From positions 62,001 through 126,000 of the forward strand of contig JAQMWT010000071.1 in NCBI GenBank assembly GCA_029834535.1: a stretch of DNA of 64,000 bases, in the 5' to 3' direction. This document shows, piece by piece, positions 22,461-48,360 of this stretch; within the stretch, counting starts at the first letter, position 1, and each line of letters begins with the position of its first letter. The DNA is from Chrysophaeum taylorii (taxonomy: Eukaryota; Sar; Pelagophyceae; Pelagomonadales; Pelagomonadaceae). Below the pieces are notes generated by a model. It saw only the letters and a program-made list of their open reading frames with translations, searched no databases and was not told where the DNA came from. Made by a program: the position numbers and the translations under genes.

Positions 22461-25400
22461 ATGCCGGCAGCCGACCCCGGCGCCAAGCGCGTCCACTACC
22501 ACTTCTTCGCGACCGACACCTTCCGCGCCACGAACATCCCGATCCTCGGTCTCCGCCTCGAGCTCCTCCCGCGGTCGCGCCGCCGCGAGGCCGTCGAACT
22601 TCTGGCCGAGGTGACTTGTTCGACTCTCCGTACTACCCGAAACACTCCGCACGCAGGCGTTCTGGGGCAACCGGAAACACTTCCGCATGGTCCTGCGGAG
22701 ACTCAAACCCTTCGAGGAGTGCCAGGTCCGTCACCCGCGCTGTTGTTGTTGTCTTCGCGCTCGCGTCTTGGTGGCCAAGTTTCTCGAGTGCCGCCCGAGG
22801 TCCCCGCGGTCCACTGTCGCGCGCACCGCTCCTCCTAGTGCCTCTTGTACCGCTCTTCGTCGCACGCTCCATGGTGGACCTTGCTGTTGGCGTGGTTGTT
22901 GTTGTGATTGCTCGCGCGCGGCACGACTCTTCTCGTTCGGGGTTTTATCTGTTGTTCGGTATTGCGCGGCCGCGCGTCCCGCGCCATCGTCGCACCTCGC
23001 CCTCTACCGTGTTCACTTTGCGCGACGACGACTCGTTCATAAGGCGATCGCGCTCGTCGACGACACCCTCGGGCTGATCGCGATCGCCGTGGTCGAGGGC
23101 ATGCACTCAACCCAGCCCCATGGCAACTACAAAATCCTGTACGTCCACGCTTTCGTCGTGCGCGCCGACGTGAGGAAGCGGCCCGGCCTCAAGCTCGGTG
23201 CGTCCTCGAATTCTCGCTTTTTATATTAAATTTTATGTCCTACTATCACCTGTCTACGCGTTGGTTTGGACCAACACGCTACCGCTACACAGGCACGCGC
23301 TTCATCGCCGCGCTGCTCGAGCTCGCGGCGTTCCACTCGTTTCACAGCATGATCTTCACCGCGACCCTCGGCGAGCGTGCGAGCGTGCCGTTTTGGATCG
23401 CGAACAAGGCCGCGCATTTCAGCGAGAAAAAAATTGTCTCGATCGTCCTCAAGAACTCGTACAACTTCGCCGCCGGGTCTGGACCTTCCGCGTCCTAGAA
23501 TCGCCGCCGCTTTCGTTCCCTCACCGGGTTTTACCTCGCTCGCAGGAACCAATCTCCGATCTTTGCCGCCGACGACTCGACGCCGCCGATGGGCTACTCT
23601 ATCAGGCACACGCTGCGAGCCCAAAACTGGACCGACCTCTGCGCGCGCCTCCTCCGCATCTTCCAAGCTTCGACTATTCCGGAGATTCGTGCGTATCCAG
23701 GACCGCCCAGCTCACCCATTCGTCAATCACCAGGCGCCCTACGCGACAAGTTCCCGATCCACCACTTCAAGGCCGAGACGCGCATCGAGGACGTGATGAA
23801 TTCGGTCGTCGAGGCCCGCGTCGACTCGCGAGGACGCACGCGCGCCGCCGCCGCCAAGCAACGTGCCAGCGAAGGCATCAGCCAAACCGACCCGCGGCGA
23901 CCCGTCTCGCGCGAACCAGGCCCGAACGACGAAGTCCGACCCGAACGCCCCCGCGGCGTCTTCGTCTACGTCGTCGACGGCCGACGCGCGCGCCTGCTCA
24001 CCGAGGTATGCTCACACTCGTCGCCGTGTAAAACTTTCTCTCCGCAGCTTCAAATGCGTGAGAACTCGTCGATCTTCTGCGAATTTTTGTTTGACCAAGT
24101 TTCTCTTGTGCATAGTTGCGCGGCTTCAAGAGATGGGCTTTGACGTCGAGAAAACCATCACCGGCGACGTGTGCTACGTCGGACCCGATGGCATCGCCTA
24201 TCCGTCTGTTGTCGAAGCCGCCGCCGCCGTGGGCGCGCCGCAAACCGTCGCCGGACTCTTCATCGTGCTCGCCCACTACACTTTGGTGCCGCGCGCGAAC
24301 GAGCTCGAACTGTTACCACCTCGCGAGCAACAGCAGATCCGGTCGATCATCAGGAGCGCGATCGTTCGTGCCTCCGCCGGCCAGACCAACACGACGAGTC
24401 TTTCCTGTCTCACCGATTCCCAGCGTCGACCTTGTCGTTTCGAGATTCTGCACACCGTCCCAACGTAGGCATCATCTGCGGCAAGCCGCCCGAGGGCGGG
24501 AAAGGCGAGTTCTTCGCGTGCTCGGCGTACCTCATCGAGACGTACTCCAACGACGGCCGCCGCGGATTGTGCTCGAACGGCGCCCACATCTCCTGCCTCA
24601 ACTACTACATGCGGTTCAATTTGATTCCGGGGGTGCGACCGGTGGGCGCTATGTTCTGTTCGGTACTTTGCCAAGTCCGCGGCGTTGCTTTGAAGCTACG
24701 GATCGTCCACCACCCCGACGACCCCGACATTTTGTTCGTGCCCCAGATCGAGTTTCCCGGCGCGCTCCCGGCGGCGATGCTTCTTTCGACCCAAATCACG
24801 CGTCCGATGCGTCTCGCCGACCGCCGAGACCTCCGAACTCGTCTGCAATCGCTCGGTGTGTCGTGCGACGGTATCGACGCTCTCGAGACGCCGTGGTCCG
24901 ACTACGAGTCGAAACGCCACGCTTCACATCTCCTCGACGCCGCGAGCTTGACGTGGTCCGCGGTTTCGAACGAACACGCCGACCGCATCCCCGCCGGTCT
25001 CCCGCCGCTCCCGCCACCCTCGCTCTTGCCGCCGCCGCCCGCATTCGAAGAGCATCTCGAAATGTTGTTGGACAACGACGAACCGACGCCGCTGCCCGAA
25101 GAGGCCGACGTTCCTCCCGTCGATGGTACTGTCGTCGTCGCCGCCATGTCGGATGATGCGGAGGCCGCTGAGCAGCAGCAGCAGCATACTGGTGACGTCG
25201 CCGCGCAACACCAAAAAGAGTCGCTGAATAAAGCCGGTACGTCAGTATTGTTGGAGACACGCTCCGAGAGCATCGGACGAGAGATGGACCCGTTCCTCCC
25301 GGACCAAGCAGAGGACGCTGTTGCGAACACTCGTCAACAAAATTCACGACGTGGGCCGGCCAAGTTGGAACTAGATGTTAGTGTTGCTGCTGCCGAGTCG

Positions 25401-27396
25401 CTCGACGCACAACATACGCCCGACCAGCTGACTGCATACCCCGAGTTGGCCGAGCGACATCACGGCGTCGAGTCCGTCGACGAAGTTCAGGCAGCTCGCA
25501 CTCGCGAAGATCGACGAATCGCAAACGAGCCACTGATGGGCTACGAACGTCCTCGCGCGGCGATGGCAGACGTCGAAGACCTTCCTGACAACGTGGGATT
25601 TGTGGACGAAGAGGACGACGATGTGGAAGACGACGATGACAAAGATTCTGATGCCGCGAAAGACGAGGACGCGCCAAGAGGTGACGACAATCGCGACGAC
25701 GAAGAATATGTCGACGAGATGGGAGAGGAGAAGGAAGATGGTGTGAGGAGAAATGTCCTGGGGCGTCGTATTTGTGCAACTCGTGCTCCTCGTCGCGCCT
25801 GGACACCCGACGAGCAGGAGCGGTTTGTCGCTGCCGTCAAGAAATACGACGCAAAGAACTGGAAATTGGTCGCGCGCGAAGTCGGCAATCGGACCGATCT
25901 GCAATGCGCTAACCACTACCACCGCACCTACGAGACCGAATACGTCGCGCAGCGGGAATCAATACAAAACGCGATTCGTGAGGAGGAGCGCAAGGCGAGG
26001 TGGTTGGCCTTCGACAAGCCGTACCTGGAGTGTGACGCGTGGAATCACGTATACGATCTCGAAGGAGGGACGTGGGAACTTCCGTCCACTGTCGATCCCG
26101 ACGTGCCGATTCACCAACTCAGTCTCGAGGACCACGAGGCCTCGCTTGATGCCTATTTTGCCTTCGAAGCGAAAGAGCTGACGCGCGACCAGTCCGAGGA
26201 GGAGACGATGGTGGGCTACGTACGAGATCGTGTCATTGGACGTCGGCGAGAGTTCGACATGTACGAGACGTACTTTGGAGCCCAGCAAGCCTTCGAGGAC
26301 GCCGTCGTCGAAGCAGTGCTCGCGATGCACCGCCTCCGCCGCCCCGACGGCTCGTACGCGCGTCTTCCCGCCGAAGCTTTTGATTTCGACGACGATTTCG
26401 AACCATCGCGTGGTGGTCAAGAGGAGGAGGACCACTCGTCGACACCCTCTCCGGAGCCCGTCGACAAGGTCATCCGCATCAACCAAACCACCGGTGAGGT
26501 CCTTACGTCCACCGAAATCCGCGAACGTATTGCCGTGCGCGAACAACACGAGCGCGAGTTATCATCATCATCGTCGATGGTCACCGACGAGCAGCAGTCG
26601 TTCCCCGAGACTCTCGAAGACCTCGTCCCGAACCAGCTCGTCGTCTGGCGCCGGTGGGTCGACACCGAACACCTCCGGAAGAAGCCTTCGAGAGCGATAG
26701 ATAGGCCTGGAAATCGCGTCAAGGTCTAACCAAAGAGTCCACCTCCATTCTTGCACTCGAGGTTTTCCTTCGTGAAACTACCCACAGGCAGCGTGGGCTC
26801 GCGCTCAGACGCTCACGTTTGCGGCGGCGCGGCAGCAGCTCGAACAGTGGAGCATCGAGCCCGAAGTGGCGCGCGTCCTCGAGCTCACGGCACCCGGTGA
26901 GTCTTGGTTGCTCTCAGCATTCGTGGTGTTCAACTCGCAGATGAATGATCTCGTGTATCACAGGCGCAACCGCAACGCTCGAGGATGTCGGATACCATGG
27001 CCGCGTCGCTATGCTAAAACTCGACTTACTGATTCGTGTCGCGCTGCGCAGATGTTGCCTCACGTCGCGCGCGTCACTTATCGTCAACAACTCGCACAGC
27101 GTCTTACATCAGTAGTTTCCAATTTTTTTACCCCAATTCGACCATCTTCCAACCACGCAGGTGCTGTGGCGATCGCGAACGCGAGTGTCGCTCGACAACT
27201 CCACGACTTCGACTCCATTAGGAACCTCAAGTCCCGGACGTGCTACAACGGAATCGCGTGGGACCGCAAGGTCCAGAAGTGGACCATAACGGGACTGTTT
27301 CGCGAAAAGCGTGAGCTGGAGCGCGGGCCGATCGTCGAGGTGTTGATCTACGTCGAGAAGATCGTCCTTGACAACAACAACCCGCGTCTTGAATGA
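22461..27396 (+). CDS. Multi-exon GNAT-like/Myb-SANT protein, copy A
   Basis: Start Met at 22,461 (MPAADPGAKRVHYHFF). Exons inferred from frame and GT-AG sites: 22,461-22,610; 22,657-22,725; one uncertain exon within 22,780-22,960; 23,044-23,197; 23,293-23,476; 23,546-23,688; 23,734-24,005; 24,133-24,397; 24,469-26,723; 26,788-26,896; 26,964-27,035; 27,161-27,396. Early exons give ILYVHAFVVRADVRKRPGLK and a helix/strand pattern like GNAT acetyltransferases (weak). The large exon holds a conserved Cys-rich block (GLCSNGAHISCLNYYMRFN), a Pro-rich then acidic stretch, and one Myb/SANT repeat (25,785-25,950) with W-x19-W spacing. The last exon ends in YNGIAWDRKVQKWTI, recalling AP2. Likely a DNA- or chromatin-binding factor; not recognised as a named family. 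Near-identical copy B lies at 42,059. Confidence 0.65.
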
Positions 27397-27495
27397 ATCT
27401 CGAGATGATGATTTTTTTGGGAGTGTTGTCGGTCGTTGTTGTAGCCAGATTCTGTCGCTTCAGTGTGTTTTGGCCCTAACCTTTTCGACATCCAC

Positions 27496-28937
27496 GTAGC
27501 TTCGCTCGCACGGATTCATCCCGAACGATCCGAGGAGCGTGCTCGAGGCCCTGCAGATCCTCGTCGCGATCCTCGAGGTTTGCAAAAAAAAAGGTGGCCC
27601 TAAAGGTGGAGGTGGTGTACCCGTTCGCCTCACGGACCGGTTCGACGACCGCACGGCCAAGGAGCTTGGGATAAAATCCGTCAATATGGTCCGCTTCCAG
27701 TGGCCAGCGTACGGCTTCGGAATCAATTCCCGCGTCAACGACAGCCTCAAGGTCTTCCGATTTTATCAAATTGACTTGGCCCGCGCCGGCGTCGCGTCTT
27801 CCATCGCAACGATCAATATTTGACACAGATCCTCTCGTTCGCAGATCATCTTCGCTTGCCGCTTGCTCGGGCTGCTGATCCCGTGCGTTGTAGTGTCTTT
27901 CGAAATCTGAGTCGTCGTCGCATGAAATTTCCCACGCGCACATTTGCATAGATATCTCAACGCCGCGAGCCCGTTCGATCCCGCTATTCGCAACGATGTC
28001 GACCGCGCGCGAGTCTTGTGATTCACATTCTTTCGGAGTCTTCATCGACAATCAACATGCGATTGATTCATTATTTTTTCCGCAGGCAAAATCGCTATGA
28101 ACTTTATCTGGAGATCAAACAACGTCGTGCGCGCGTTATCCTCGAGGAGCGGTAGAAACATCGACGGTGTCCTGTTTAAATATCATCAAGTCGCCGCCTC
28201 ATTCTCCCACCACCGTGCAGGAAGCACAAGAAGCAGCTTTTGGAGAAGAACAGCGCAGGCGAACTCCGACGCGACGGGAGGAAGAGGAGCGGCATCAATT
28301 GGCGCGCCAAGCTCTCCAAAAAGAAGAAATCTAAAGCCAAAACCGCCGCGAAGAAGCCCACCGTCTCCAAGAAGCCCGCCAAGAAGACCGTCACCTCGAA
28401 GAAGCCCTCGTGCGTCTCGCGACGACAAAACAGCAATCTCTCGTCACATCCGTCGCAGGGCATCAAAACGAGCGCTCGAACCAGCGACCGCCGCGGGAGC
28501 TTTCGCAGCAACGTCGGCCGCGCCGTCCGTCGTGATTGGTCCATCTGCTGCACCGGCGCCTTCCTTGGGACGCAAGATTACGAAGGAAGCGAAGGACGAG
28601 CTCTGGGCGTGGTTCGCGAGAACCATCGATACGTGGCCGTCGCCGAGCCTCCCAAAGGAGGGCGTCTTCGCCGACCTCGACGCCATAAATCATAGCGAAG
28701 CATGGGCTGAACCGGAGGCAGGCGCGCACGCAGCTGGCCGCCTACAAGAAGAAGATGGGGCCAAACCTAGTCGGGGCCGCGCACGCAGTTCCTGCGCCCG
28801 CCGCTGCGGAAGACGAGATGTCATCCGCGTCTTTCGCCGCCGCGGCGAAGATGCCTGGCGTCTCCAAGAAGGAGGCTTCGTTCGTTCGTTCGTTCGTCGA
28901 CCCGCGCCCTCCGTTGTCCACACACGATGATGCCTAA
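27496..28937 (+). CDS. Conserved downstream exons of copy A (same gene or a separate one)
   Basis: After the stop at 27,396 conservation with copy B resumes: HGFIPNDPRSVLEALQILVA (from about 27,496), PVRLTDRFDD, FYQIDLARAG (to about 27,800), NRYELYLEIKQRRARVILEE (28,092-28,155), a Lys-rich tract KHKKQLLEK...KKKKSKAKTAAKK (28,220-28,410), and a segment ITKEAKDELWAWFARTIDTW that resembles the first homeodomain helix. There is no good ATG, so these are probably exons of the same gene reached by a splice donor before 27,396. A 4-nt insertion near 28,690 relative to copy B shifts the frame: HGLNRRQARTQLAAYKKK continues in another frame to a stop at 28,937. Confidence 0.45.
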
Positions 28938-29456
28938 AGGTAAAAGAATGTGGTATGATTAGCGACAAGACGCTTTCGGATCTCGACACGAACAACTTAT
29001 TTAAAGGCTCCGTGTAGAAGGCGAGACAAAAGAGATTTTTGTCCTTATTGCGGGATATCTCATCGGGTGAAACCCTTTTCGAGGGGTCTCACTCTCCCTG
29101 GGTGGGAGCGTCGTTGAGTGAAGCGAGTGAGTGCACCACGTAGTTAAATTACAATCGCCCCACGACCCCAGTCTGTCTCCCTTGCATAATGTCCAGGGCT
29201 AAAAATCAGGGCCAGCAGAATTTGACGCGTGTAATTTCCGCTGCGTGCACCCGCGGTGCCTCGAGTGCTCGACGAGCACCAGACCGACCCGGTCGCTTTG
29301 GGACCCAAAAAGTTTGAGAAAAGCCCCCTCGGCTCGAGAAGATGCGGGGGGGGGTAAGTTTCGTGTAATGTGTTAGTTACACTCGAGACTTAACCCCCGC
29401 AAGCAAGTCAGTAGAAGGTTCTCGAACCAGCGAGTCGATCGACAGAGAGAAGAAGA
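28938..29456. other. Intergenic region, 5' leader of the CHCHD2-like gene
   Basis: No coding sequence. It contains short G/C-run blocks and the start-proximal sequence of the next gene. Confidence 0.4.
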
Positions 29457-29923
29457 ATGCCCCGCAGTGGTTCTCGCCGTTCTGCTCCCGCCCGTCCCAT
29501 CGTTCGGTGAGTGTGTATTCGGTGAACGCCCGTCACCGCGACCGCAGGCCCCCGCCGCCCGCCCAGGCTCCGCCGCCGCCGCCGCCGCCGCCGCCCCCGG
29601 CGGCGACGCCCATGACGGCGCCTGCGCAGCAGTCGGGGGGAATGATGTCGGGGCTCATGGGAACGATGGCCCAGGGGCTTGCCTTTGGAACCGGATCGTC
29701 GATCGCGCACCACGCCGTGGGGGCCGCGGCGAATTCGCTATTTGGGGGTAAGAAGGCCGAGGAAGTGACGGCGGCCGAAGTCAAGGCGGCGCCGGTCGCG
29801 GCGACGTGCGAGGCGGATAAGCAGATGTTCTTCGAGTGTCTTCAGCGCGCCGACGCCGAGAAGTGCCACGACCTCTTCACCGCCCTCCAGGCCTGCCAGG
29901 ACAACGCCAAGTTCCAGGGGTGA
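29457..29923 (+). CDS. CHCHD2/CHCHD10-like twin CX9C protein
   Basis: Two exons, 29,457-29,506 and 29,548-29,923, joined over a 41-nt GTGAGT...CGCAG intron. The product is about 141 aa: a basic N-terminus MPRSGSRRSAPARP, a Pro-rich stretch, a glycine-rich hydrophobic segment (MMSGLMGTMAQGLAFGTGSS), then CEADKQMFFEC and CHDLFTALQAC, both exact C-x9-C. This order is that of CHCHD2/CHCHD10/Mix17, mitochondrial intermembrane-space proteins folded by Mia40 and linked to cristae organisation and respiration. Stop at 29,923. High confidence in family; paralogue assignment is open. Confidence 0.9.
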
Positions 29924-30087
29924 TGTCGCGGGTCGAGAGTCTCGCGGCCACGAGGAACAATTCATAGGGGTGGTCGAACTTACTAACCAACCGTCCGCCT
30001 GTAATTTGGGTAAGCACGCAGGGAAGTGGAAAAGACGCAGCAACGCGAGCGCGACTCGTCATCCATCATCGATGGTGGCGCAGCACT

Positions 30088-30187
30088 AACTAACTAACTA
30101 ACTTCAGACCTCGCATGGGAGCCGGAATCACGGAACTGTAGACGAGGAGCGCCGAAAAAAAGGTCGGAGAGTGACCATCAAGCTTGT
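30088..30187 (-). mobile_element. TTAG-tailed SINE-like retroposon, copy 6 (5'-truncated, 100 bp)
   Basis: Reverse-complemented 3' end of the family, with internal deletions relative to other copies, flanked by the perfect 8-bp duplication CGCAGCAC at 30,080-30,087 and 30,188-30,195. Confidence 0.75.
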
Positions 30188-30211
30188 CGCAGCACACGCA
30201 CTCTCTCGAGA

Positions 30212-30382
30212 GAGAGTCTCGACGACTTCGTCCCGCATAAATAAAGCTCGTCGTGGCTGGCGCCGGTGGATCGACACCGACCACCTCCAAAAGAAACCTT
30301 TTCGGTCGTGGAAATCACAACAAGCTCGTCGCGCTCAGACGCTTGCGCTTGCGGCGGCGGCGGCGCTGGAGCAGAGTGGAGC
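30212..30382 (+). pseudogene. Intron-less fragment of a Myb/SANT-gene paralogue
   Basis: Matches the end of the large exon and the next exon of copies A and B: WRRWIDTDHLQKKP followed directly by RRAQTLALAAA, where A and B have WRRWVDTEHLRKKP and ARAQTLTFAAA separated by a 64-nt intron. The intron is absent here. A stop codon and small indels show decay. This fits a retroposed (processed) copy or the relic of a third gene copy that never had this intron. Confidence 0.6.
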
Positions 30383-30458
30383 ACCCTACCACCGGGTCGG
30401 GCTTGGTGGAAGAAAATCAATCACACTAACTAACCCTGGTGGTGGTAGGTTGAAGAAG

Positions 30459-31445
30459 ATGGTGTTGTTGCTACTAGGAACAACGATAAGTTGTGCGGCG
30501 CTCATCCCCGAGTACGAGTCGGTCGTGCTCAAGGGGCTGCCCCGGCTCGGGGGAACGCTGTATCGGTCGACTGACACGGGGTATTGTGTGGGCGTGACGT
30601 TCGGCGGCGAAGGGGAATCCGTCGCCAGAGCGAGATACGTTCGAAGTTCAGAATTTCTGAAAAACCGCACAGAAACTCATCTCGGGCTTATATTTTGGGG
30701 CGGGCGGCTCCTCGCGCTCCGCGATGGGACGCCCTATCTCATGGATCCGTTGTCTCTCGGAACGCAGAAAACGTCAGAATTGGGCGGCGCTCTTTCGGAC
30801 GGCCGAGAATTCGACAGAATTCGAATTCGCGGAAACCGACTCTACTCCGCGCGGAACGGCATTTTTAAGACCCTCGTCGATGTTTACGACGAAAAATTTC
30901 GAATCGTAAAGGAAATCAAGGTGAAAAAAACGAAAGATTTTTTTCCCCTTCAAGACGAATTTTTTCGGCTCGAGGACGAGGGGGAAATCGTCGACGAAAA
31001 TCGAATACTAATCGATGGGATACTGCAGCCCGACAACATCGAGGCCCACAGCGTCGCGGGTCCCTATGCCGCATCCGATCACAAAATTACGAATTTGGAG
31101 TCCGGAATTAGTTGGTCCGCCGAAGACGACGTCGTCGTCGGCGTTCCGGAACTCGTTCCGGACTCCAAACACCTCGCCGTACTCCTCCACGGCGACACGA
31201 CAGACATCGCCGTCTTCGAGGACCTCGACCTCATCGCCCGCGTTCCCCTTCCGGCGGTTATTCCCCCCGTCCGCCTCGCAGGCTGCTTCGCGCCAATCGT
31301 CCCTTCGCTCGACGACATTCGATCTGCCGAAACCCTAACCCGTCTCTACGCGCGCAAGTCGCGCGAGTGGAACGAGATCGAAGCCGGCTTCTCCGGCATC
31401 GGCATCAAGCAATTCCTCTTCCCAAACAAAATATCGGGCGCCTAG
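30459..31445 (+). CDS. Carotenoid cleavage dioxygenase-like protein, short, ligand histidines not conserved
   Basis: 328 aa from Met 30,459; the preceding codons belong to the pseudogene above. MVLLLLGTTISCAAL looks like a signal peptide. The beta-propeller pattern of the RPE65/CCD family is visible: LPRLGGTLYRSTDTGY, ARARYVRSSEFL, HLGLIFWGGRLLALRDGTPY followed by LMDPLSL, then DSKHLAVLLHGDTTDIAVFE with DLDLIARVPLPAVIPP. CCD enzymes use four iron-binding His; the last (normally in a G-x-H-G motif after PxPP) is replaced by RLAGCF, and the MHDF-type motif is FPLQDEF. At 328 aa it is also shorter than the usual 450-550. Possibly a non-catalytic homologue. Confidence 0.6.
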   Translation: MVLLLLGTTISCAALIPEYESVVLKGLPRLGGTLYRSTDTGYCVGVTFGGEGESVARARYVRSSEFLKNRTETHLGLIFWGGRLLALRDGTPYLMDPLSLGTQKTSELGGALSDGREFDRIRIRGNRLYSARNGIFKTLVDVYDEKFRIVKEIKVKKTKDFFPLQDEFFRLEDEGEIVDENRILIDGILQPDNIEAHSVAGPYAASDHKITNLESGISWSAEDDVVVGVPELVPDSKHLAVLLHGDTTDIAVFEDLDLIARVPLPAVIPPVRLAGCFAPIVPSLDDIRSAETLTRLYARKSREWNEIEAGFSGIGIKQFLFPNKISGA

Positions 31446-32182
31446 AATAGCCATTCGATGCTGCCGCGCCTTTGTCGTCGGTCTAAGAGAACGGGTGTTG
31501 TTGTTGTTCTCGATGAAAGGCGGGGCGGGGACCTGCGTTGGTATGGCATTCGCGACGCTCCAGGACCTCAGTCAATAGGAGGGGAGAACACGACACGGCT
31601 CCACCATCGCGAAGAAGGAACGCCCGCTACGCCGTGGACCACACGCCCTATCGACTTTAAAATACCATCAGCTACTACAGCTCGCGGTGATGATACCTTC
31701 GGGATTCCAATACCGTGGCTCGCACCTCAACTACGCGCAGAGGTGGCCGTCAAACGTGCACGAGGTCGCGAAGCTCGAGAGCCCATCCATCCATCCATCC
31801 ATCCATCCATTCACGTGGAGTCTAATGTCTTCAAGCCCACCGCCGCTGAAGGAGGAATAGATGCGTCATGGAAGGTAAAATTCCGTCCGCCGCGAGGAAG
31901 GAGGGAGGTTGACCACCAGTCCCCGTGGCACAACCACAGCAACTTTTTGAGCCGGCCAAACCTACAGCGCGCGGAAGATTCGACGACGGGTTTCAGACGC
32001 AGCAGCGGAACGAGGGAGCGGGTTTCAGACGCAGCAGCGGAACGAGGGAGCGGGCCATCCCCCGCAAATTGCACATCGTTTGCGCTGGCCCGCGATACGA
32101 TGGTGCTAGCCTATCGCTCTGGGTGCCGGTCCCCTTCGCCACGCGCCTCTGTTGTGCTTTTCACAAAGGGTGGTATATTTAT
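31446..32182. other. Non-coding, with two short tandem repeats
   Basis: An (ATCC)n run at 31,784-31,810 and a 31-32-bp unit present twice (about 31,989-32,052, GGGTTTCAGACGCAGCAGCG core). No gene is supported. Confidence 0.5.
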
Positions 32183-33491
32183 CAGCGTTGGGAATTCACT
32201 TAACCCCACCAGTGAGAAGGTGAACCACAAGTCGTTTTTTCTAAAGTGAAGTGAACGCCATTTTTAAGCCTGCGCTGGTCCCTGCCGCGCCCCGTCAGTT
32301 CCATGTCCCCCGCCCGCTATTGCTCAGGTGCTCTTAGTTTCTTCGTTCGCGTGCGAATGACCTCGGTATCGTCGTCTTGTTCTTCCTCATCAGCATCAAT
32401 CTCCGAAGAGTCTTCTGCTGCTCACGGCGTTTTTTTAACTTGGTCTTGATGAGGTCGCAATACTTGATCCGGGCCGCCGCCGCCGGCGCAATGAATAAAG
32501 AAAGAATTTCTTCTTCGTGCGCAGTATACTGGCCGGTGTTTCTTTCCCTCGGTCAGAACAAGATTTCCCATACATACTCGGGCAGCGCACACAGTAGCTC
32601 TGCGCGCCACGGGTTCCAATTGACTAAACCCTCGCCATGTCCGGAAGGAAGGAACCCATACTGCTCCTTGGTGATACAACTCCATCCTTCTTCTCAAGCT
32701 CAGGATAATTTCCAGTCGAGGGATCTCGAGGGCCAGATCCGTCGAGTGAAGACCTACCTACCTGTTCAAACTCCACATTGAAATCTGGTTCCCAGGCATA
32801 GATAGCAAAAGGTTCATCGCCGCTAACGTCAAGCGTCGACGAGTGCCGCCAAGAGATTTTGGGCCAGCGCAGGCTCGGGGAGAGGCGCAGGATCGGAGAA
32901 AGAAAGGCTTTGTGAGGTGGAACGCAGCGCGTGCGTAAATCACGTATTCTTCATCAGTATTGAGCAATCTCCTGGTCCGAGTTTTCTGATCGGCCGACGG
33001 ATGCCGGCAGTTGATATTCCGAAACCCGAGAAGGAAGGCAATCAACTCGCGATCGTTGAATTGGTAGTTGGAATGACACACCTTCTCGTCATTTTTCCCG
33101 CAAAAACAGTAGTTACGTTCGGGAGATCAACGACTCTTCTAGCGTCCCAGCTCGCAGAGACTCGATCATGTTGTGCTTGATCATCAGTGCGGCGCACGCC
33201 CCCTTATGGTATAAGTGTTCATGTTGCACGAAAAAAACACATCCGATATAGCAAAAATCGCCTCGAATTCAGCCAACGCCACCCATTGCTCATCGCTGAT
33301 TGTCCAGAGAAGTCCAATTTTGTTGGTAGCCGTGTGCAGCAGTTTGAGCACACGTGGTGCATGCGCAGCAAGGAATGATCAAGTTGGTAGTGCGCCCGGA
33401 GCCTCGTCTTATTGAGGTCGAGCTTCGGCGATTGATTTCCCCGGCCGTAACGGCGAGTGCAGCTCCTTCAAACGCGTGTAAGAAAAGAACC

Positions 33492-36996: not shown

Positions 36997-37081
36997 ACAC
37001 AATTCTTGTCACGATGGGGCGTTAGTAGCGATAAGGGAATGACGTACGGATACTAGATACGTGGTGCAGGGGTTCCTCACA
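36997..37081 (-). repeat. Solo copia LTR
   Basis: 85 bp whose complement (TGTGAGGAACCCCTGCACCA... to ...GTGACA) is clearly related to the 99-bp LTRs at 15.5 and 20.8 kb. No internal element remains. Flanks ATTCT and AGTCT agree at 4 of 5 bases, consistent with an old 5-bp duplication after LTR-LTR recombination. Confidence 0.7.
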
Positions 37082-38237: not shown

Positions 38238-38456
38238 ATTCCCAACGCTGATATTAATAATAGCGCTATTAGTAAATTGCAATTAATATCCCCTTGCTCC
38301 TAGGCTCGTTCGCGTTTTGTGCACATACCAGGAGTACGGCGCAAGGCCATGGTGAATGAATGTGAAGTGAATACGAAGGGGACCGGATTTGTGTGAAGTG
38401 AAAGTAAAGTGAAGTGAATAAATGAGCGAGGGCTTGCGAGTATGTAACGCTGGTTG

Positions 38457-41400
38457 TTACGCATGCGCCGTTGAAGCCACTTCCAGCAGCCTGGTCCGGA
38501 GGTAAGAGTCCTGTTTTCGCTCGCCGTCGAGAGCGCCCCACTCGAAAAAAGGAATACGAAGGACGTCCCACCCAAGCCGCCGCAAGAGTCGTAACTTGAA
38601 GCGCGTAGAGCCGTTATCGACACGCGTTTTCTTGAGATAGTGGTACGGCCCATCGACTTCGACCGCGCGCTTGGTGTCAGGTTGAGCCATGTCGAGCGAC
38701 AATCCCTCTTCGGTCACGTGCTCGAAGATGTGCGTCCAGCCAATTCGGTCGAGCGCGGTCGCTACGTCGCGCTGGAGTTGGGACGGTGATGGGTCCTGAC
38801 GTTGATACGCCGCCAGGAGCATCTGCTGGTGGTTTGTCAGCGGGAAGTTCCGGTAGTCGGGCCACTCGAGATGAAAGTGCAGCGAAGCAAGGTGGAGCTG
38901 CGACAAATGGCATTCATCGAGGGCATCGAGATCTGCCATAGTTTTGTAGGCGAGCTCCGCGAGGAATCCGGGGTCTCGTTTCCAATCGACGCAGGCAAAT
39001 GCCCATGCCGTGTTGGCGAGGTCCTGCGGTTTGAACTCGCCCAGCCGCGATGAAGCCGCGCCGACGATCGCGTCGAAGAGCCGAGGTGCCTCGATGCCCG
39101 CCGTCGCGAAGGCCCACGCCATGTTGGCGAGATTCTGCGGATTGAACTCGCCGAGCCGCGAAGGAGCCACGCCGGCGATCGCGTCGAAGAGCCGAGGTGC
39201 CTCGATGCCCGCCGTCGCGAAGGCCCACGCCGTGTTGGCGAGGTTCTGCGAATTGAACTCGTCCAGCCGCGAAAGAGCCCCGTTGGCGATCGCGTCGAAG
39301 AGCTGAGGTGCCTCGATGCCCGCCGTCGCGAACGCCCACGCAGTGTTGGCGAGGTCTTGCGGTTTGAACTCGCTCAGCTTCGAAAAAGTCGCGCCAGCCA
39401 TCGTCGCGAAGAACTGAGATGCCTCGATTCCCGCCGTCGCGAAGGCCCACGCCGTGTTGGCGAGGTTCTGCGGATTGAACTCGTCCAGCCGCGACGGAAC
39501 CGCGCCAGCAATCGCCGCGAAGTACTGAGGTGCCTCGATCCCCCTTGTCGCGAAGGCCCACGCCGCGTTGGCAAGCTCCTGAGGTTTGAACTCGCTCAGC
39601 CTCGAAAGAGCCGCGCCAGCCATCGCCGCAAAGAGTTGAGGTGCCTCGATTCCCGCCGTCGCGAAGGCCCACGCCGTGTTGGCGAGGTTCTGCGGATTGA
39701 ACTCGTCCAGCAGCGAATAAGCCGCGCCGGCGATCGCCGCGAAGAGATGAGGTGCCTCGATCCCCCTTGTCGCGAAGGCCCACGCCGTGTTAGCGAGGTC
39801 CTGCGGATTGAACTCGCCCAGCCGCGAAGGAGCCGCGCCGGCGATCGCCGCGAAGAGATGAGGTGCCTCGATGCCCACGGTCGCGAAGGCCCACGCCGTG
39901 TTGGCGAGCTCCTGCGGATTGAACGCGCCTAGCCGCGAAGGAGCCGCACCGGCGATCGCCTCGAAGAGCTGATGTGCCTCGACCCCCCTCGTCGCGAACG
40001 CCCACGCAGTGTTGGCGATGTCCTGCGGTTTGAACTCGCTCAGCCTCGAAAGAGCCGCGCCGGCGATCGCCGCGAAGAGCTGAGGTTCCTTGATGCCCGC
40101 CGTCGCGAAGGCCCACGCCGTGTTGGCGAGGTCCTGCGGATTGAACTCGTCCAGCCGCGAAGGAGCCGCGCCAGCAATCGCCGCGAAGAGCTGAGGTGCC
40201 TCGATACCCGATGTCGCGAAGGCCCACGCCGTGTTGGTAAGCGCCTGAGGATTGAATTCGCCCAGCCGCGAAGGAGCCACCTCGGCGATCGCCTCGAAGA
40301 GCACAGGTTCCTTGATGCCCGCCGTCGCGAAGGCCCACGCCAAGTTGGAAAAGTCCTGCGGTTTGAATTGGCTCAGGAGCGAAAGTGCCGCGGCGGCGAT
40401 CGCCGCGAAGACCCGAGGTGCCTCGATACCCGCCGTCGCGAAGGCCCACGCCAAGTTGGCGAAATTCTGCGGTTTGAATTCTCCCACCCGCGAAGGAGCC
40501 GCGCAGGCGATCGCCTGGAAAAGCTGAGGTGTCTCGATCCCCGTCGTCGCGAAGGCCCACGCCGTGTTTGCGAGCCCCTGTGCATTGAACTCGCCCAGCC
40601 GTGAAGGAGCCGCGTCGGCGATCGCCGCGAAGAGATGAGGTGCCTCGATGCCCGCCGTCGCGAAGGCCCACGCCGTGTTAGCGAAGTCCTGAGGTTTGAA
40701 CTCGCCCAGCCGCGAAGGAGCCACCTCGGCGATCGCCGCGAAGAGCTCGGGTGCCTCGATGCCCGCCGTCGCGAAGGCCCACACCGTGTTCGCGAGCCCC
40801 TGCGGATTGAACTCGCCCAGCCGCGAAATAACCGCCTCTGCGATCGCCGCGAAGAGCTGAGGTGCCTCGATTCCGGCCGTCGCGAAAGCCCACGCCGCGT
40901 TGGCGAGCGCCCGCTGATCGAATTCTCGAATGTAGCGGCGACAAGCGTCTGCGAGGGCCATCACACGGCGATCGCGTTGCAAGTCGCGGTTTCGGCCTCC
41001 AAACTTGGCAACACGGTGCGCGGCAGTCGCCAAGTTCCGAGCGCTGAATTTGTCGCCTCGAGCCGCGAAGAGCGAGAGAATCGTGTCGGGAGTCGCACCG
41101 CGGTTCGTCATCAGTTTCCCCCATTGTATTTGTTGCGATCGCGGTGCCTCGGCACCGGTGGCTCGCTTGTGGCTCGTGTCTTTGCCGCGACGGTCAGCGC
41201 GGCGTGCGAGGCCGCGGCTCTGCGTCTCACCCCTATGTCTTGCCGCGGATTGAGAACCGCGCAAGTCTCGACCGTCGCGCCGCCGGCACATGTCGTCTGC
41301 ATGGTCAGGGATTCGTCGTATCGGGGGACTGCGAACTTCGTCGGTCTCGATCGGCGCCCCGATGGCCGTGGAAGTCTTCGTACCACCACCGCGACCGGTT

Positions 41401-41504
41401 TTGCGCTTTTTGATGGCGCTCGTAGTTTGACGACAGCGAGTCGTCGTGTCGCCTCCAAGGTGTTGTTGTTGTCGCCCAGTCTCCTCCTCCACGCGTATCA
41501 TCAT
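38457..41504 (-). CDS. RAP-domain protein with 18 tandem AWAFATAG repeats, 1015 aa
   Basis: Start Met 41,504; about 190 basic, disordered N-terminal residues (the true start may be downstream, e.g. the Met before TNRGATPDTILSLFAAR). Then come 17 full and one partial unit of 37 residues of the type FNPQNLANTAWAFATAGIEA, encoded by 111-bp near-identical DNA repeats (about 38,995-40,925). The C-terminus has a RAP domain: KRAVEVDGPYHYLKK...STRFKLRLLRRLGWDVLRIP followed by FFEWGAL. Such helical-repeat RAP proteins (FASTK/OPR-related) bind organelle transcripts; mitochondrial or plastid RNA processing is the likely role. The organelle is not decided by the visible N-terminus. Confidence 0.88.
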   Translation of the reverse strand: MMIRVEEETGRQQQHLGGDTTTRCRQTTSAIKKRKTGRGGGTKTSTAIGAPIETDEVRSPPIRRIPDHADDMCRRRDGRDLRGSQSAARHRGETQSRGLARRADRRGKDTSHKRATGAEAPRSQQIQWGKLMTNRGATPDTILSLFAARGDKFSARNLATAAHRVAKFGGRNRDLQRDRRVMALADACRRYIREFDQRALANAAWAFATAGIEAPQLFAAIAEAVISRLGEFNPQGLANTVWAFATAGIEAPELFAAIAEVAPSRLGEFKPQDFANTAWAFATAGIEAPHLFAAIADAAPSRLGEFNAQGLANTAWAFATTGIETPQLFQAIACAAPSRVGEFKPQNFANLAWAFATAGIEAPRVFAAIAAAALSLLSQFKPQDFSNLAWAFATAGIKEPVLFEAIAEVAPSRLGEFNPQALTNTAWAFATSGIEAPQLFAAIAGAAPSRLDEFNPQDLANTAWAFATAGIKEPQLFAAIAGAALSRLSEFKPQDIANTAWAFATRGVEAHQLFEAIAGAAPSRLGAFNPQELANTAWAFATVGIEAPHLFAAIAGAAPSRLGEFNPQDLANTAWAFATRGIEAPHLFAAIAGAAYSLLDEFNPQNLANTAWAFATAGIEAPQLFAAMAGAALSRLSEFKPQELANAAWAFATRGIEAPQYFAAIAGAVPSRLDEFNPQNLANTAWAFATAGIEASQFFATMAGATFSKLSEFKPQDLANTAWAFATAGIEAPQLFDAIANGALSRLDEFNSQNLANTAWAFATAGIEAPRLFDAIAGVAPSRLGEFNPQNLANMAWAFATAGIEAPRLFDAIVGAASSRLGEFKPQDLANTAWAFACVDWKRDPGFLAELAYKTMADLDALDECHLSQLHLASLHFHLEWPDYRNFPLTNHQQMLLAAYQRQDPSPSQLQRDVATALDRIGWTHIFEHVTEEGLSLDMAQPDTKRAVEVDGPYHYLKKTRVDNGSTRFKLRLLRRLGWDVLRIPFFEWGALDGERKQDSYLRTRLLEVASTAHA

Positions 41505-42058
41505 CGTTTTACCAGTCTACCTTCCGTTGACGGCAAAAAGCTGATGGAAGCGCGAACAAATAATTCGAATCTCTTCGTAACGACGGTTTTCAAAACGAGG
41601 TCCGTTGAGAAAGTGTTTGAATCTTAACCCTTAATCGACGGGGGCGCGTACGTGCGAACGCCCCTCGAGCCCCGCAGAAGGCGGGTCCGAATTCACGACA
41701 AAGACAGGGCGGCGTGCAGCAGCGCGATCGTACCTCGCTAGGGCCGGTTGCATGCAAAGCGCTGTACGCCAGCAGAGTCGCTTTGGTGGCGCAGCATTTT
41801 AGGGGCAGGTACAAAATATTATCATTCGAACCACTTTCAACGGCTCTAAACACCTACCGTTTGGAATCGTTCCAAATACCACGACTTCAATGGGCTTTCA
41901 AATCAAAAGGCCATCATCTGCGGCAACGAATTCAACAATAATAATACTTTGAGGATGTATGCGACGTCATGATTCGCGGGCGAACGCGAACGTGCGAAGC
42001 CGAAAAATAACACACTCATCAGTTCTCAGAGGACTGAAGAAAAACGAACCGTCGCGCC
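41505..42058. promoter_or_regulatory. Divergent spacer between RAP gene and Myb/SANT copy B
   Basis: No gene. The last ~130 bp match the sequence upstream of copy A, including AGGATGTATGCGACGTCA. Confidence 0.35.
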
Positions 42059-45000
42059 ATGCCGGCCGACCCCGGCGCCAAGCGCGTCCACTACCACTTC
42101 TTCACCGACGACACGTTCCGCGCCGCGAACATCCCGATCCTCGGCCTCCGCCTCGAGCTCCTCCCGAGGTCGCGTCGCCGCGAGGCCGTCGAGCTCTTAG
42201 CCGAGGTGAGGGCCGTCGATGTTCGTACTACCGTCACCCGCACGCAGGCGTTCTGGGGGAATCGGCCCCACTTCCGCATGGTTCTGAGGCGACTCAAACC
42301 CTTCGAGGAGTGCCAGGTCTGTCGTAGCTGTTTTTGATATCGTTTTTTTCGTGGCTCGGCCGTATCTCGAGAAAGTGCCGAGGCTCCCGTTGTCGCACAC
42401 GCCGGGGCTCGTCGCGTTCTCCATGATGGACCTCGCGACTGGTCTCGCGCGGCACGTCGTCTGGCGTGACACGCGGGTTTGTTTTTCGGTGGCGCCCGGA
42501 CTTTAGAGCGCCACTGTCATCGTTTCGCTCTCCCTTCGCCTGCTGTGTTCGCATCTTGCCACACCCAGGCGATCGCGCTCGTCGACGACACCCTCGGGCT
42601 GATCGCGATCGCCGTGGTCGAGGCCATGCACTCGACCAAACCCCGCGGCAACTACAAGATCCTGTACGTCCACGCTTTCGTCGCGCGCGTCGACTTGAGA
42701 AAGCGGCCCGGCCTCAAGCTCGGTGAGAAAATTTTCGGCGTCGAATACTTGAGAATTTGTTTTATGCTCTTCCAGCGGTGTCCTCTCGTGCGCACGCCCC
42801 GACCCATTTAGGCACGCGTTTTATCGCGGCGCTGCTCGAGCTCGCGGCTTTCCACTCGTTCCACAGCGTGATCTTCACCGCGACCCTCGGCGAGCGAGCG
42901 AGCGTGCCGTTTTGGATCGCGAACAAGGCCGCGCACTTCAGCGACAAAAAATTTGTCTCGATCGTCCTCCAGAACTCGTACAAATTCGCCACCGGGTCTA
43001 GGCCTGCCGCGTCCTAGAATCGCCGCCACTTTCGTTCCCTCGCCGGGGTTTATCTCGCTCGCAGAAACCAGTCGCCGATCTTTGCCGCCGACGACTCGAC
43101 CCCGCCGATGGGCTACTCTATCAGGCACGCGCTGCGAGCCCAAAACTGGACCGACCTCTGCGCGCGCCTCCTCCGCATCTTCCAAGCTTCGACTATGCCG
43201 GAGATTCGTGCGTACCTAGGACCGCCCAGCTCACGCGTTACACACCAGGTGTCCTACGCGACAAGTTCCCGATCCACCACTTCAAGGCCGAGACGCGCAT
43301 CGAGGACGTCATGAAGTCGGTCGTCGAGGCCCGCGTCGATTCTCGAGGCCGCACGCGCGCCGCCGCCGCCAAGCAACGTGCCAGCGAAGGCGTCAGCCAA
43401 ACCGACCCGCGTCGACCCGTCTCGCGAGAACCCGGCCCGAACGACGAAGTCCGACCCGAACGCCCGCACGGCGTCTTCGTCTACGTCGTCGACGGCCGCC
43501 GCGCGCGCCTCCTCTCCGAGGTACGGTCACACTCTTTCTTGTCATTAAACACTCCCCCGCAGCTTCAAATGCGTGAGCACTCGTCGATCGTCCGCGTTAT
43601 TTGACCACGTCCCTTGCATAGTCGCGCGGCTCCAAGAGATGGGCTTTGTCGTCGAGAAAACCATCACCGGCGACGTGTGCTACGTCGGACCCGATGGCAT
43701 CGCCTATCCGTCTGTTGTCGAAGCCGCCGCCGCCGTGGGCGCACCGCAAACCGTCGCCGGACTCTTCATCGTGCTCGCCCACTACACTTTGGTGCCGCGC
43801 GCGAACGAGCTCGAGCTGTTACCACTTGCTCGCGAGCAACAGCAGATCCGGTCGACCATCAGGAGCGCGATCGTTCGTGCCTCCGCCGGCCAGACCAACA
43901 CGACGAGTCTTTCCTGTCTCACCGATTCCCAGCGTCGACCTTGTCGTTTTCGAGATTCTGCACACCGTCCCAACCTAGGCATCATCTGCGGCAAGCCGCC
44001 CGAGGGCGGGAAAGGCGAGTTCTATGCGTGCTCGGCGTACCTCATCGATACTTACTCGAACAACGGCCGCCGCGGATTGTGCTCGAACGGCGCCCACATC
44101 TCCTGCCTCAACTACTACATGCGGTTCAATTTGATTCCGGGGGTGCGACCGGTGGGCGCTATGTTCTGTTCGGTACTTTGCCAAGTCCGCGGCGTTGCTT
44201 TGAAGCTACGGATCGTCCACCACCCCGACGACCCCGACATTTTGTTCGTGCCCCAGATCGAGTTTCCCGGCGCGCTCCCGGCGGCGATGCTTCTTTCGAC
44301 CCAAATCACGCGTCCGATGCGTCTCGCCGACCGCCGAGACCTCCGAACTCGTCTGCAATCGCTCGGTGTGTCGTGCGACGGTATCGACGCTCTCGAGACG
44401 CCGTGGTCCGACTACGAGTCGAAACGCCACGCTTCACATCTCCTCGACGCCGCGAGCTTGACGTGGTCCGCGGTTTCGAACGAACACAACGACCGCATCC
44501 CCGCCGGTCTCCCGCCGCTCCCGCCACCCTCGCTCTTGCCGCCGCCGCCCGCATTCGAAGAGCATCTCGAAATGTTGTTGGACAACGACGAACCGACGCC
44601 GCTGCCCGAAGAGGCCGACGTTCCTCCCGTCGATGGTGCTGTCGTCGTCGCCGCCATGTCGGATGATGATGAGGCCGCCGAGCAGCAACATACTCGTGAC
44701 GTCGCCGCGCAGAACCACCAGGAGTCGAATGCGTATGAACCAGTTGCGTTGGACGCACGCTCCGAGAGCATCGGACGAGAGATGGACCCGTTCCTTCCGG
44801 ACCGAGGAGACGACGCTATTGCGAACACTCGTCAACAAACTCCGCGACCCGTGCCGGCCACGTTGGAACTGGATGTAAGTACTGCTGCCGCCGAGTCGCT
44901 CGACGCACAACATACGCCCGACCAGCTCACAGCGTACCCCGAATTGGCCGAGCGAAATCACGGGGTCGAGTCCGTCGACGAAGTCCAGGCAGCTCGCGCT

Positions 45001-46907
45001 CGCGAAGATCGACGAATCGCAAACGAGCCGCCGATGGGCCACGAACGTCCTCGCGCCGCGATGGCAGACGTCGAAGACTTTCCCGCGGAATTCGTGGACC
45101 AGGAAGACGACGACGAGGAAGATAATGACGACGACAAAGATTCTGATGCCACGAAAGACGAGGACGTGCCAAGAGGTGAGGACGATCGCGACGACGAGGA
45201 GTATGTCGAAGAAAAGGAGATAGAGGAGGAGGAGGAGGAGGAGGAGAGAAGAGATATCCGTGGGGGTCGTGTTGGTCGGCGTGCCGCTGGTCTCCGTGCT
45301 CCTCGTCGCGCCTGGACTCCCGACGAGCACGAGCGGTTTGTCGCTGCCGTCAAGAAACACGACGCAAAGAACTGGAAATTTGTCGCGCGCGAAGTCGGCA
45401 CTCGAACTTGGCAACAGTGTTGCATGCGCTACAACAATACCTTCAAAGCCGAGTACGTCGCGCAGCGGGAATCAATACAAAACGCGATTCGTGAGGAGGA
45501 ACGCAAGGCGAGGTGGTTGGCCTTCGACAAACCGTACTTGGAGTGCGACGCGTGGAATCACGTATACGATCTCGAAGGAGGGACGTGGGAACTTCCGTCC
45601 ACTGTCGATCCCGACGTGCCGATTCACCAACTCAGTCTCGAGGACCACGAGGCCTCGCTCGATGCCTATTTTGCCTTCGAAGCGCAAGAGCTGACGCGCG
45701 ACCAGTCCGAGGAGGAGACGATGGTGGGCTACGTACGAGATCGTGTCATTGGACGTCGGCGAGAGTTCGACATGTACGAGACGTACTTTGGAGCCCAGCA
45801 AGCCTTCGAGGACGCCGTCGTCGAAGCGGTGCTCGCGATGCACCGCCTCCGCCGCCCCGACGGCTCGTACGCGCGTCTTCCCGCCGAGCTTTTGATTTCG
45901 ACGACGATTTCGAACCAACGCGTGGTGGTCAAGAGGAGGAGGACCACTCGTCGACACCTTCTCCGGAGCCCGTCGACAAGGTCATCCGCATCAACCAAAC
46001 TACTGGCGAGGTCCTCACGTCCACCGAAATCCGCGAACGTATTGCCGTGCGCGAACAACACGAGCGCGAGTTATCATCATCATCGTCGATGGTCACCGAC
46101 GAGCAGCAGTCGTTCCCCGAGACTCTCGAAGACCTCGTCCCGAACCAGCTCGTCGTCTGGCGCCGGTGGGTCGACACCGAACACCTCCGGAAGAAGCCAA
46201 AGAGAAAGATAGATAAGCCTGGAAATCGCGTCAAGGTCTAACCAAAGAGTCCACCTCCATTCTTGCACTCGAGGTTTTCCTTCGTAAAATCACCAACAGG
46301 CAGCGTGGGCTCGCGCTCAGACGCTCACGTTTGCGGCGGCGCGGCAGCAGCTCGAACAGTGGAGCATCGAGCCCGAAGTGGCGCGCGTCCTCGAGCTCAC
46401 GGCACCCGGTGAGTCTTGGTTGCTCTAGCATTCGTGGTGTTCAACTCGCAGATGAGTGATCTCGTGTATCACAGGCGCAACCGCAACGCTCGAGGATGTC
46501 GGACACCATGGCCGCGTCGCTATTCTCTCACTCGACTTACTGATTCGTGTCGCGCTGCGCAGATGTTGCCTCACGTCGCGCGCGTCACTTATCGTCAACA
46601 ACTCGCACAGCGTCTTACATCAGTAGTTTCCAAGATTTTTACCCCAATTCGACCATCTTCCAACCGCGCAGGTGCTGTGGCGATCGCGAACGCGAGTGTG
46701 GGTCGACAACTCCACGACTTCGATTCCATAAGAAGCCTCAAGTCCCAGACGTGCTACAACGGAATCGCGTGGGACCGCAAGGTTCAGAAGTGGACCATAC
46801 CGGGACTGTTTCGCGAAAGGCGCGTGCTGGAGCGCGGGCCGATCGTCGAGGTGTTGATCTACGTCGAGAAGATCGTCCTTGACAACAACAACCCGCGTCA
46901 TGAATGA
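42059..46907 (+). CDS. Multi-exon GNAT-like/Myb-SANT protein, copy B (frameshifted)
   Basis: Same gene structure as copy A: exons 42,059-42,205; 42,248-42,316; an uncertain exon near 42,360-42,450; 42,569-42,722; 42,812-42,995; 43,065-43,207; 43,249-43,520; 43,639-43,906; 43,979-46,235; 46,300-46,408; 46,475-46,546; 46,672-46,907. Exon lengths match copy A exactly in most cases. The GNAT-like region includes ILYVHAFVARVDLRKRPGLK. The Myb/SANT repeat (45,297-45,455) is canonical with TRTWQQCCMRYNNTF as third helix, different from copy A. A single A is missing near 45,887 relative to copy A, which moves the rest of the large exon out of frame. Unless this is a sequence error, the protein is truncated after the Myb repeat. 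Confidence 0.6.
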
Positions 46908-46989
46908 ATCTCGAGATGATGATTTTTTTTTGGAGTGTTGGTCGTTGTTTTTCTAGATTCTGTCACTCTATTGCTTATTTGGACCTAAC

Positions 46990-48360
46990 CTTTTCGACAT
47001 CCCCGTAGCTTCGCTCACACGGTTTCATCCCGAACGATCCGAGGAGCGTGCTCGAGGCAATGCAGATCCTCGTCGCGATCCTCGAGGTTTGCAAAACGAG
47101 AGGTGGCGTTAAAGGTGGCGTACCTGTTCGCCTCACGGACCGGTTCGACGACCGCACGCCCAAGGAGCTTGGACTCACCTTTTCCAAACAAATGGCCACC
47201 TTCAAATGGCCGGCGTATGGCGCGAGCTTTCAAGCCCGCGCCAACGACAGCCTCAAAGTCGCCCGATTTTATCAAATCGACTTGGCCCGCGCCGACGTCC
47301 CGTCTTTTAGTGCAATTACCAATATTTGACACACATCCTCTCGTTTGAACACAGATCATCTTCGCTTGCTGGTTGCTTGGGCTGCTGGTCCCGCGCGTCG
47401 CAGTGCCGCTCGAGAACCCCCTGTCGTTGTCGTATCCGTTCTTACACGCGGACGTTTGCGTAGATACCTCAACGCCGTGAGCCCGTTCGATCCCGCCGTG
47501 CGCAACGAGATCGACCGCGCGCGACTCTTGTGATTGACATTCGCGCGGCGTTTTTTTTTTTTTTTTTTCGCAGCCAAGCACCTCTATTTCAATTTTTTTT
47601 CCCGCAGGCGCAATCGCTATGAACTCTTTCTGGAGTTCAAACAACGTCGTGCACGCGTGATCCTCGAGGAGCGGTATAAAAAAAAAAAATCATCAACCGC
47701 GTCCTGTTTTTATACACCCTCGCCGTCTTATTCGAGCACATCGCGCAGGAAGCACAAGAAGCAGCTCTTGAAGGAAGGCGAACTCCGATGCAGCGGAAGG
47801 CAAAGGAAGGGCATCAATTGGAGAGCCAGGCTCTCGAAGAAAAAGAAATCAAAAGCCAAAACCGCGGCCAAGAAGCCCACGGTCTCCAAGAAAACCGCCG
47901 CCAAGAAGCCCGCATCGAAGAAGAACAAGCCCTCGTATGATGTCTCCCGGTGGGTGTCCTACTCCCTACGTACGAAAAAACCGCTTGTCACCGCCGTTGT
48001 TGGTGGCTGCGCAGGGTTATCAAGCGAGCGCTCGAACCAGCGACCGCCGCGGATCACAGCTCGGGAGCTGACGCGACATCGGCCGCGCCGGTCGCGAGCA
48101 AGCCTGCCGAGATTGGTCCCGCCGCCGAACTCTCTTCCTCGGGACACACGAGCAGGATCTCGAAAGAAGCGAAGGATGAGGTCTGGGCGTGGTTCGCGAG
48201 AACCATCGAAACGTGGCCATCGACGAGCCTCCCGAAGGCGGGCGTTTTCCCCGAGCTCGACGTGCTGATCGCGAAACATGGGCTGAACCGTAGGCAAGCA
48301 CAAACTCAATTGACCGCCTACAAGAAGAAGAAGAAGAAGAAGACGCGGCCGGACCTATAG
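46990..48360 (+). CDS. Conserved downstream exons of copy B with homeodomain-like end
   Basis: Counterpart of 27,496-28,937. Blocks: HGFIPNDPRSVLEAMQILVA (from about 47,008), PVRLTDRFDD, FYQIDLARAD (to about 47,290), NRYELFLEFKQRRARVILEE (47,610-47,675), a Lys-rich tract (47,750-47,930), then in an uninterrupted frame SKEAKDEVWAWFARTIETW and HGLNRRQAQTQLTAYKKK, stop at 48,360. The last part has the spacing of a divergent TALE-type homeodomain (helix 1 with WF; L-N-R-R-Q helix 3), but this is a weak match. Unlike copy A the end is intact. Confidence 0.45.

Follow-up and report, generated by a model that had tools for sequence, protein, structure and literature searches.

The genome of the pelagophyte alga Chrysophaeum taylorii carries two copies of a large, intron-rich gene within a 64,000-nucleotide (nt) stretch of DNA, which is positions 62001–126000 of contig JAQMWT010000071.1 (here C71) in an assembly of 70.8 Mb and 697 contigs. 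We refer to this stretch as the window, and coordinates are positions within it unless another contig is named. Copies A and B are direct repeats lying 19.5 kb apart, each of approximately 6.4 kb (22461–28760 and 42059–48360), and alignment of 22337–28755 with 41919–48331 gives 85% identity over 6589 columns; no inverted repeat pairs of 40 nt or longer were found within 22000–49000. A previous sequence-only reading of the window had described a duplicated multi-exon gene with shared introns, which our analysis confirms, intron positions being firm for exons 1–10, and had noted exon lengths that were mostly equal, as is the case for 11 of the 17 modelled exons. The duplication it saw is real, but two copies proved too small an extent, since searches of the genome return 10 loci. 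The assembly also has 84 matches to chlorophyll a/b-binding proteins, as befits a photosynthetic eukaryote. The protein contains a single Myb/SANT repeat, and differences between copies within that repeat are concentrated on one face of its recognition helix.

The family is dispersed across five contigs, as found with queries from the Cys-containing block, the part following the Myb repeat, the C-terminal part and the N-terminal part: three loci are on C71 (two of them in the window), four on C396 and one each on C528, C105 and C223, with decayed pieces on at least six further contigs (C342, C402, C534, C440, C203 and C555). Protein identity to copy A is 91–100% for the Cys block at all ten loci, at some over part of its length only, and 91–100% for the post-Myb part at nine, the locus at C396:12–15k matching at 64–82% and in pieces. 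This locus and C223 are fragmentary or deleted and lie outside the set of spliced models. The window also holds a family remnant, in which the end of exon 9 is fused to exon 10 without intron 9; it scores 149 against the spliced family sequence and 105 against the unspliced, with a maximum of 30 among 200 shuffles, and provides an independent hint that the intron 9 splice is used. A ‘WRRW’ motif in the neighbouring open reading frame (ORF) 30102–31445, considered as a domain occurring elsewhere, was ruled out as such, being part of the remnant. Neither viral contigs nor prokaryote genomes yielded relatives of the Cys block, and phages yielded none of exon 9 (24471 to 26723); the portions of the literature available to our search contained no description of such a gene.

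Splice junctions were set by eye on an alignment of eight copies (A, B, C528, C396b, C396c, C396d, C105 and C71:40.5–46.6k), in which conserved exons stand apart from variable introns; exon boundaries were chosen from copy A and from open frames, and hence only their retention in the other copies counts as a test. The model comprises about 17 exons, with approximately 16 introns retained in the copies. Across exons 1–10, donors are GT at 10 of 10 sites in A, B and C528 and at nine of 10 in C396b (the other being GC), and all nine acceptors are AG in each of the four copies; over exons 3–10, the part covered by C396c and C396d, these two have GT at 8/8 donors and AG at 8/8 acceptors. The aligned place of the exon 16 donor differs between A and B, and the segment 27791–28085, outside the model, may contain one or two small exons. 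Exon 7 is a 10-nt micro-exon without which the frame would not carry over from exon 6 to exon 8. All eight aligned copies conserve it, C396c and C396d with a silent change, and the broken copy C105 has lost its acceptor AG.

Exons 1–10 of copy A (22461–26896) encode 1,209 residues, and the C528 protein is approximately 1,600 amino acids (aa) long as modelled. The spliced frame is open over exons 1–10 in A, C528 and C396b and over exons 3–10 in C396c and C396d, that is, in five of the eight modelled copies; it is broken in B and, by stops and frame changes, in C105 and C71:40.5–46.6k. In A, B, C528 and C396b the frame carries on through exons 11–14, and in the last three of these copies exons 15–17 are open to the last stop. 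Both copies in the window are poor references, B for a 1-nt gap at 45886 that causes a frameshift in exon 9 and A for four nucleotides in the last exon that B, C528 and C396b lack and that shift its end; within the gene model, C528 and C396b look complete. Exons 3–9 have evolved under constraint: in a codon scan, synonymous differences in the expected frame outnumber non-synonymous ones across much of this region, with the linker, pre-Myb and helix parts as exceptions lacking a synonymous excess, and the ratio of non-synonymous to synonymous differences (pN/pS) is 0.15–0.25 in six conserved exon segments. Exons 14–17 favour one frame more weakly, and exons 10–13 display no clear frame.

The single Myb/SANT repeat is the one domain label of the sequence-only reading that was borne out in full, with a Pfam score of 57 bits to PF00249 (cut-off 24.4). 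No other Pfam family rose above its cut-off, in keeping with that reading, which knew of no named family with this order of parts. One stretch only was matched, unlike the multi-repeat (R2R3 or 3R) Myb proteins. Its best sequence match in the PDB is c-Myb (1h88, E 2e-16), followed by SNAPC4. The predicted fold consists of three helices, with a block predicted local distance difference test score (pLDDT) of 78–87 over the first 40 residues, and the model aligns in Foldseek with solved Myb/SANT repeats, for example 1mbg at 1.0 Å over 44 columns. Beyond the repeat the structure model is weak, and none of 148 Foldseek matches to the whole model reached E ≤ 0.001.

Downstream from the start of the Myb repeat, copies A and B differ at 15 of 190 residues; a single interval of 17 residues holds 11 of these differences, a degree of clustering reached by none of 200,000 shuffles. 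At the DNA level the helix segment differs at 25 of 57 nt, compared with 4/88 in the preceding part of the repeat, 9/646 further along exon 9 and, in introns 9–12, 4/64, 1/66, 5/65 and 3/78; the exon parts near the helix and these introns are 92–100% identical. When six copies are compared (A, B, C528, C396b, C396c and C396d), the only positions of the repeat with at least three different residues are 34, 35, 38, 39, 42 and 43, which occupy one helix face given their spacing of four, while R32, T33, Q36, C37, Y41 and T44 are invariant and would preserve the fold. Position 35 aligns with K128 in R2 of c-Myb, whose R3 has K182 and N183 at the places of positions 38 and 39, by residue numbers that we assigned to the PDB alignments; all three c-Myb residues are described as key to DNA recognition (PMC3240579). 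C396d, open over exons 3–10, has its own distinct helix. A DNA search of the assembly for a donor of the copy B helix returned only copy B itself, and a protein search returned eight other family places at 64–73% and two weak matches at 46%, none of them a donor. The sequence-only reading had named this gene its best candidate for something undescribed; that judgement was fair, but the reason for it is the variation of the recognition helix, which it missed.

Silent as well as replacement differences are frequent in the helix, where pS is 0.40 (0.05–0.22 in conserved segments) and pN is 0.19 (0.01–0.04). The copies are mosaics: their groupings differ between segments, and therefore exchange between loci is implied. 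A four-gamete test fails for 29,918 of 61,425 site pairs, with a minimum of 57 intervals, a count inflated by repeated mutation and alignment error. The helix variants look like old cassettes set in a partly homogenised backbone, unlike recent point mutations, because silent divergence in the helix is high and neighbouring segments are divergent too.

The remaining labels of the sequence-only reading (GNAT, AP2 and homeodomain) were unsupported in the profile and sequence searches that we ran, while the Cys-containing conserved block and acidic stretch are present as it stated. For the Cys block, structure prediction from an alignment of two sequences did not produce a usable model (pLDDT 42). 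Exons 3–4, the supposed GNAT region, had no GNAT match in Pfam at E ≤ 10 or NCBIfam at E ≤ 1 and no PDB match at E ≤ 10, and in hhalign they fitted four E. coli GNATs no better than 19 unrelated proteins; as a positive control, one GNAT matched the other three at 86–96% probability, and our family profile was shallow (four sequences, 91–93% identical) and could miss a distant GNAT. Spliced exons 10–14 had no AP2 match in Pfam, and in the PDB, searched to E ≤ 10, they matched MIC60 weakly (E 0.045) and nothing else. A search of the whole genome for AP2 at E ≤ 1, which reads unspliced DNA whereas the AP2 candidate is divided between two exons, gave two matches, both at C396:42127–42441 in a separate gene and none at family loci. 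That gene (L055:1403–2092; C396:41902–42591), which contains both of the assembly's AP2 matches in the exon-wise search at E ≤ 1, is a small AP2-repeat gene (43.9 bits, cut-off 33.3) placed tail to tail with a family copy.

The ‘homeodomain-like’ end does correspond to a real conserved domain of approximately 60 aa, comprising the final residues of the protein, but no homeodomain match was found in Pfam or the PDB: none of five members matched any Pfam family at E ≤ 10, a single-sequence search of the PDB gave no homeodomain, and a profile search gave one unrelated weak match. The domain recurs at other loci of the genome (C96, C506, C444 and more), with 44–48% identity to the C528 copy, and so is a wider domain of this lineage.

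Table 1. Features of the gene family in the window, with the copy A exon model.
Feature	Position	Strand
Copy A homology unit (about 130 bp upstream and the whole gene)	22328–28762	+
Copy A exon 1 (ATG)	22461–22610	+
Copy A exon 2	22657–22725	+
Copy A exon 3 (earlier read as GNAT-like; GNAT unsupported)	23044–23197	+
Copy A exon 4 (earlier read as GNAT-like)	23293–23476	+
Copy A exon 5	23546–23688	+
Copy A exon 6	23734–24005	+
Copy A exon 7 (10-nt micro-exon, from frame and conservation)	24048–24057	+
Copy A exon 8	24116–24397	+
Copy A exon 9 (Cys-containing block, Pro/acidic linker, Myb repeat, conserved C-terminal part)	24469–26723	+
Cys-containing conserved block, copy A (no known family found)	24471–25061	+
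Single Myb/SANT repeat, copy A	25797–25952	+
Hypervariable recognition-helix segment, copy A	25885–25941	+
Copy A exon 10	26788–26896	+
Copy A exon 11 (tentative)	26964–26986	+
Copy A exon 12 (tentative)	27052–27082	+
Copy A exon 13 (earlier read as AP2-like start; AP2 unsupported; tentative)	27161–27339	+
Copy A exon 14 (end tentative)	27500–27790	+
Copy A exon 15 (tentative)	28086–28151	+
Copy A exon 16 (Lys-rich; tentative)	28221–28409	+
Copy A last exon (60-aa C-terminal domain; end shifted by four extra nt)	28459–28760	+
Family remnant (exon 9 end fused to exon 10 without intron 9)	30212–30383	+
Copy B homology unit (ATG at 42059, last stop ends at 48360)	41818–48361	+
Copy B exon 9 (broken by 1-nt gap at 45886)	43979–46235	+
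Single Myb/SANT repeat, copy B	45310–45465	+
Hypervariable recognition-helix segment, copy B	45398–45454	+

Several other features occur in the window. Between the copies, an ORF at 38460–41516 (− strand) encodes 1,019 aa with 17 repeats of 37 aa (111 nt, 84% matches) followed by a RAP domain, and resembles the OPR/HPR class of organelle RNA-binding repeat proteins, with an expanded array. Beside copy A, 15962–20547 (+ strand) contains the frames of a Copia-type retrotransposon (gag pre-integrase, SH3-like and RVT_2), and a 436-aa frame at 20969–22276 (− strand) is divergent to copy A at a distance of less than 500 bp; the latter has no Pfam match at E ≤ 0.01 and may, by eye, be cupin/JmjC-like. 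A nearly perfect AGAC tetranucleotide array of approximately 259 units (99% matches) lies at 54637–55671.

We consider it moderately probable, from the sequence comparisons described, that this is a dispersed family of large, probably nuclear, single-Myb DNA-binding proteins with a body homogenised by conversion and diversified recognition helices. Several observations weigh against this. A lone Myb repeat is often a weak DNA binder, or binds protein instead. The two full copies, C528 and C396b, have identical helices, and one of the two most divergent helices belongs to the broken copy B. The helix is not the sole divergent stretch: among the six copies, its mean divergence is 0.257, while the tail of exon 9 has 0.261, intron 3 has 0.345, and the segments preceding the Myb repeat and following the helix have 0.193 and 0.201, respectively. 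The high silent divergence of the helix would be explained equally by old, constrained variants, and the four-gamete count is, as noted, inflated. Of the 15 pairs, 10 have a helix pN/pS of 0.29–0.79, four have one above 1, and in the remaining pair, whose helices are identical, it is undefined; positive selection on the helix was tested and is unproven, because its contrast with the backbone (pN/pS 0.23–0.46, linker included) reaches p < 0.05 in only two of 15 uncorrected tests. These same pairs with ratios below 1, together with the frame-breaking damage to three copies and the equal divergence of stretches such as the exon 9 tail, would suit ordinary duplicated regulators in decay, in which some copies have lost constraint on the helix and different targets were not favoured. 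We regard this as possible but doubtful, since the helix core is invariant in six copies despite silent changes at several of its codons, copy B diverges far less in most of its exon segments than in the helix, and the distinct helix of C396d belongs to a copy open over exons 3–10.

That the copies are a transposable element, or a gene carried and spread by one, is suggested by their scatter over several contigs, by their decayed pieces and by the Copia-type element adjoining copy A, but is unlikely. The spliced-protein pieces scanned with Pfam contain no transposase, nuclease or reverse transcriptase domain, the introns are retained, and the ends of four copies have no shared terminal repeats by eye, no dedicated search for target-site duplications having been made. 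Moreover, comparison with the reconstructed flanks of C528 and one C396 copy demonstrates that similarity is limited to the gene; it begins no further than about 130 bp 5′ of the ATG in A and about 240 bp in B, at places that differ pair by pair (22328 to 22353 in A and 41818 to 41919 in B), and in B it ends no more than about 30 nt from the last stop codon. Because similarity is confined to the gene and its starts depend on the pair compared, old duplicates with decayed flanks fit better than an element with fixed ends. The unit might instead be two or more adjacent genes, a Myb gene ending near 26727 and another comprising exons 10–17, given that the exon 9 frame of copy A meets a stop at 26727–26729, that exons 10–13 lack a clear frame and that the model does not bridge 27791–28085. 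This too is unlikely: the whole 6.4-kb unit stays together in all four copies for which both flanks were examined, exons 10–14 join in frame in four copies, and the remnant fuses exon 9 to exon 10 with a higher score spliced than unspliced. A model built on the labels of the sequence-only reading, in which a GNAT acetyltransferase fused to Myb, AP2 and homeodomain regions acts as a targeted histone acetyltransferase, draws on a resemblance by eye of exons 3–4 to the GNAT motif A region and on a C-terminal domain that recurs elsewhere and has, by eye, a helix-loop-helix-like pattern. We think it improbable in view of the absence of profile support for any of the three labels, and since exons 3–4 lack the R/Q-x-x-G-x-G/A motif generally expected of GNATs and the last helix lacks the usual WF-N-R homeodomain signature.

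Under the favoured reading of a conversion-homogenised family with diversified helices, the copies would have arisen by ancient duplication; gene conversion would hold much of the gene alike, and the recognition helix would continue to differ among copies. Where intact copies have different helices, they would deliver the same protein body to different DNA sequences. That body, with its Cys-containing block, acidic stretch, Lys-rich tail and C-terminal domain, may provide regulatory or chromatin contacts, a role that we infer for the Cys block and C-terminal domain from the acidic and Lys-rich stretches. More tentatively, the family could constitute a working repertoire of sequence-specific DNA binders, its helix segments kept apart or swapped as cassettes amid gene conversion. 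If the copies do read different DNA, they offer an unusually clean natural experiment, in which the Myb repeats of closely similar proteins vary chiefly on the DNA-reading face of a single helix, and a starting point for a protein whose non-Myb regions matched no known family in the searches made.

Among known systems, the ETCHbox homeobox genes likewise comprise duplicated DNA-binding genes in which loss, tandem duplication and gene conversion are all reported (PMC8208926), although they encode homeodomains, belong to mammals and have no known sequence relation to the algal family. With R1 and R2 of c-Myb and with SNAPC4, the algal proteins share the Myb/SANT repeat according to Pfam, PDB sequence comparison and predicted fold; they differ from these in having one repeat only, in a large protein without another recognised domain, and in a recognition helix that varies between closely similar copies. 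The KRAB zinc-finger proteins and PRDM9, as generally understood, are rapidly diversifying DNA-binding repertoires built on zinc-finger arrays; the algal family uses a single Myb helix, has no known link to transposons or meiosis and gave no proof of positive selection when tested. It nevertheless resembles them in joining a conserved body to varying DNA-contact positions in many copies, and could tentatively represent a single-helix counterpart, in an alga, of PRDM9 and KRAB zinc-finger diversification.

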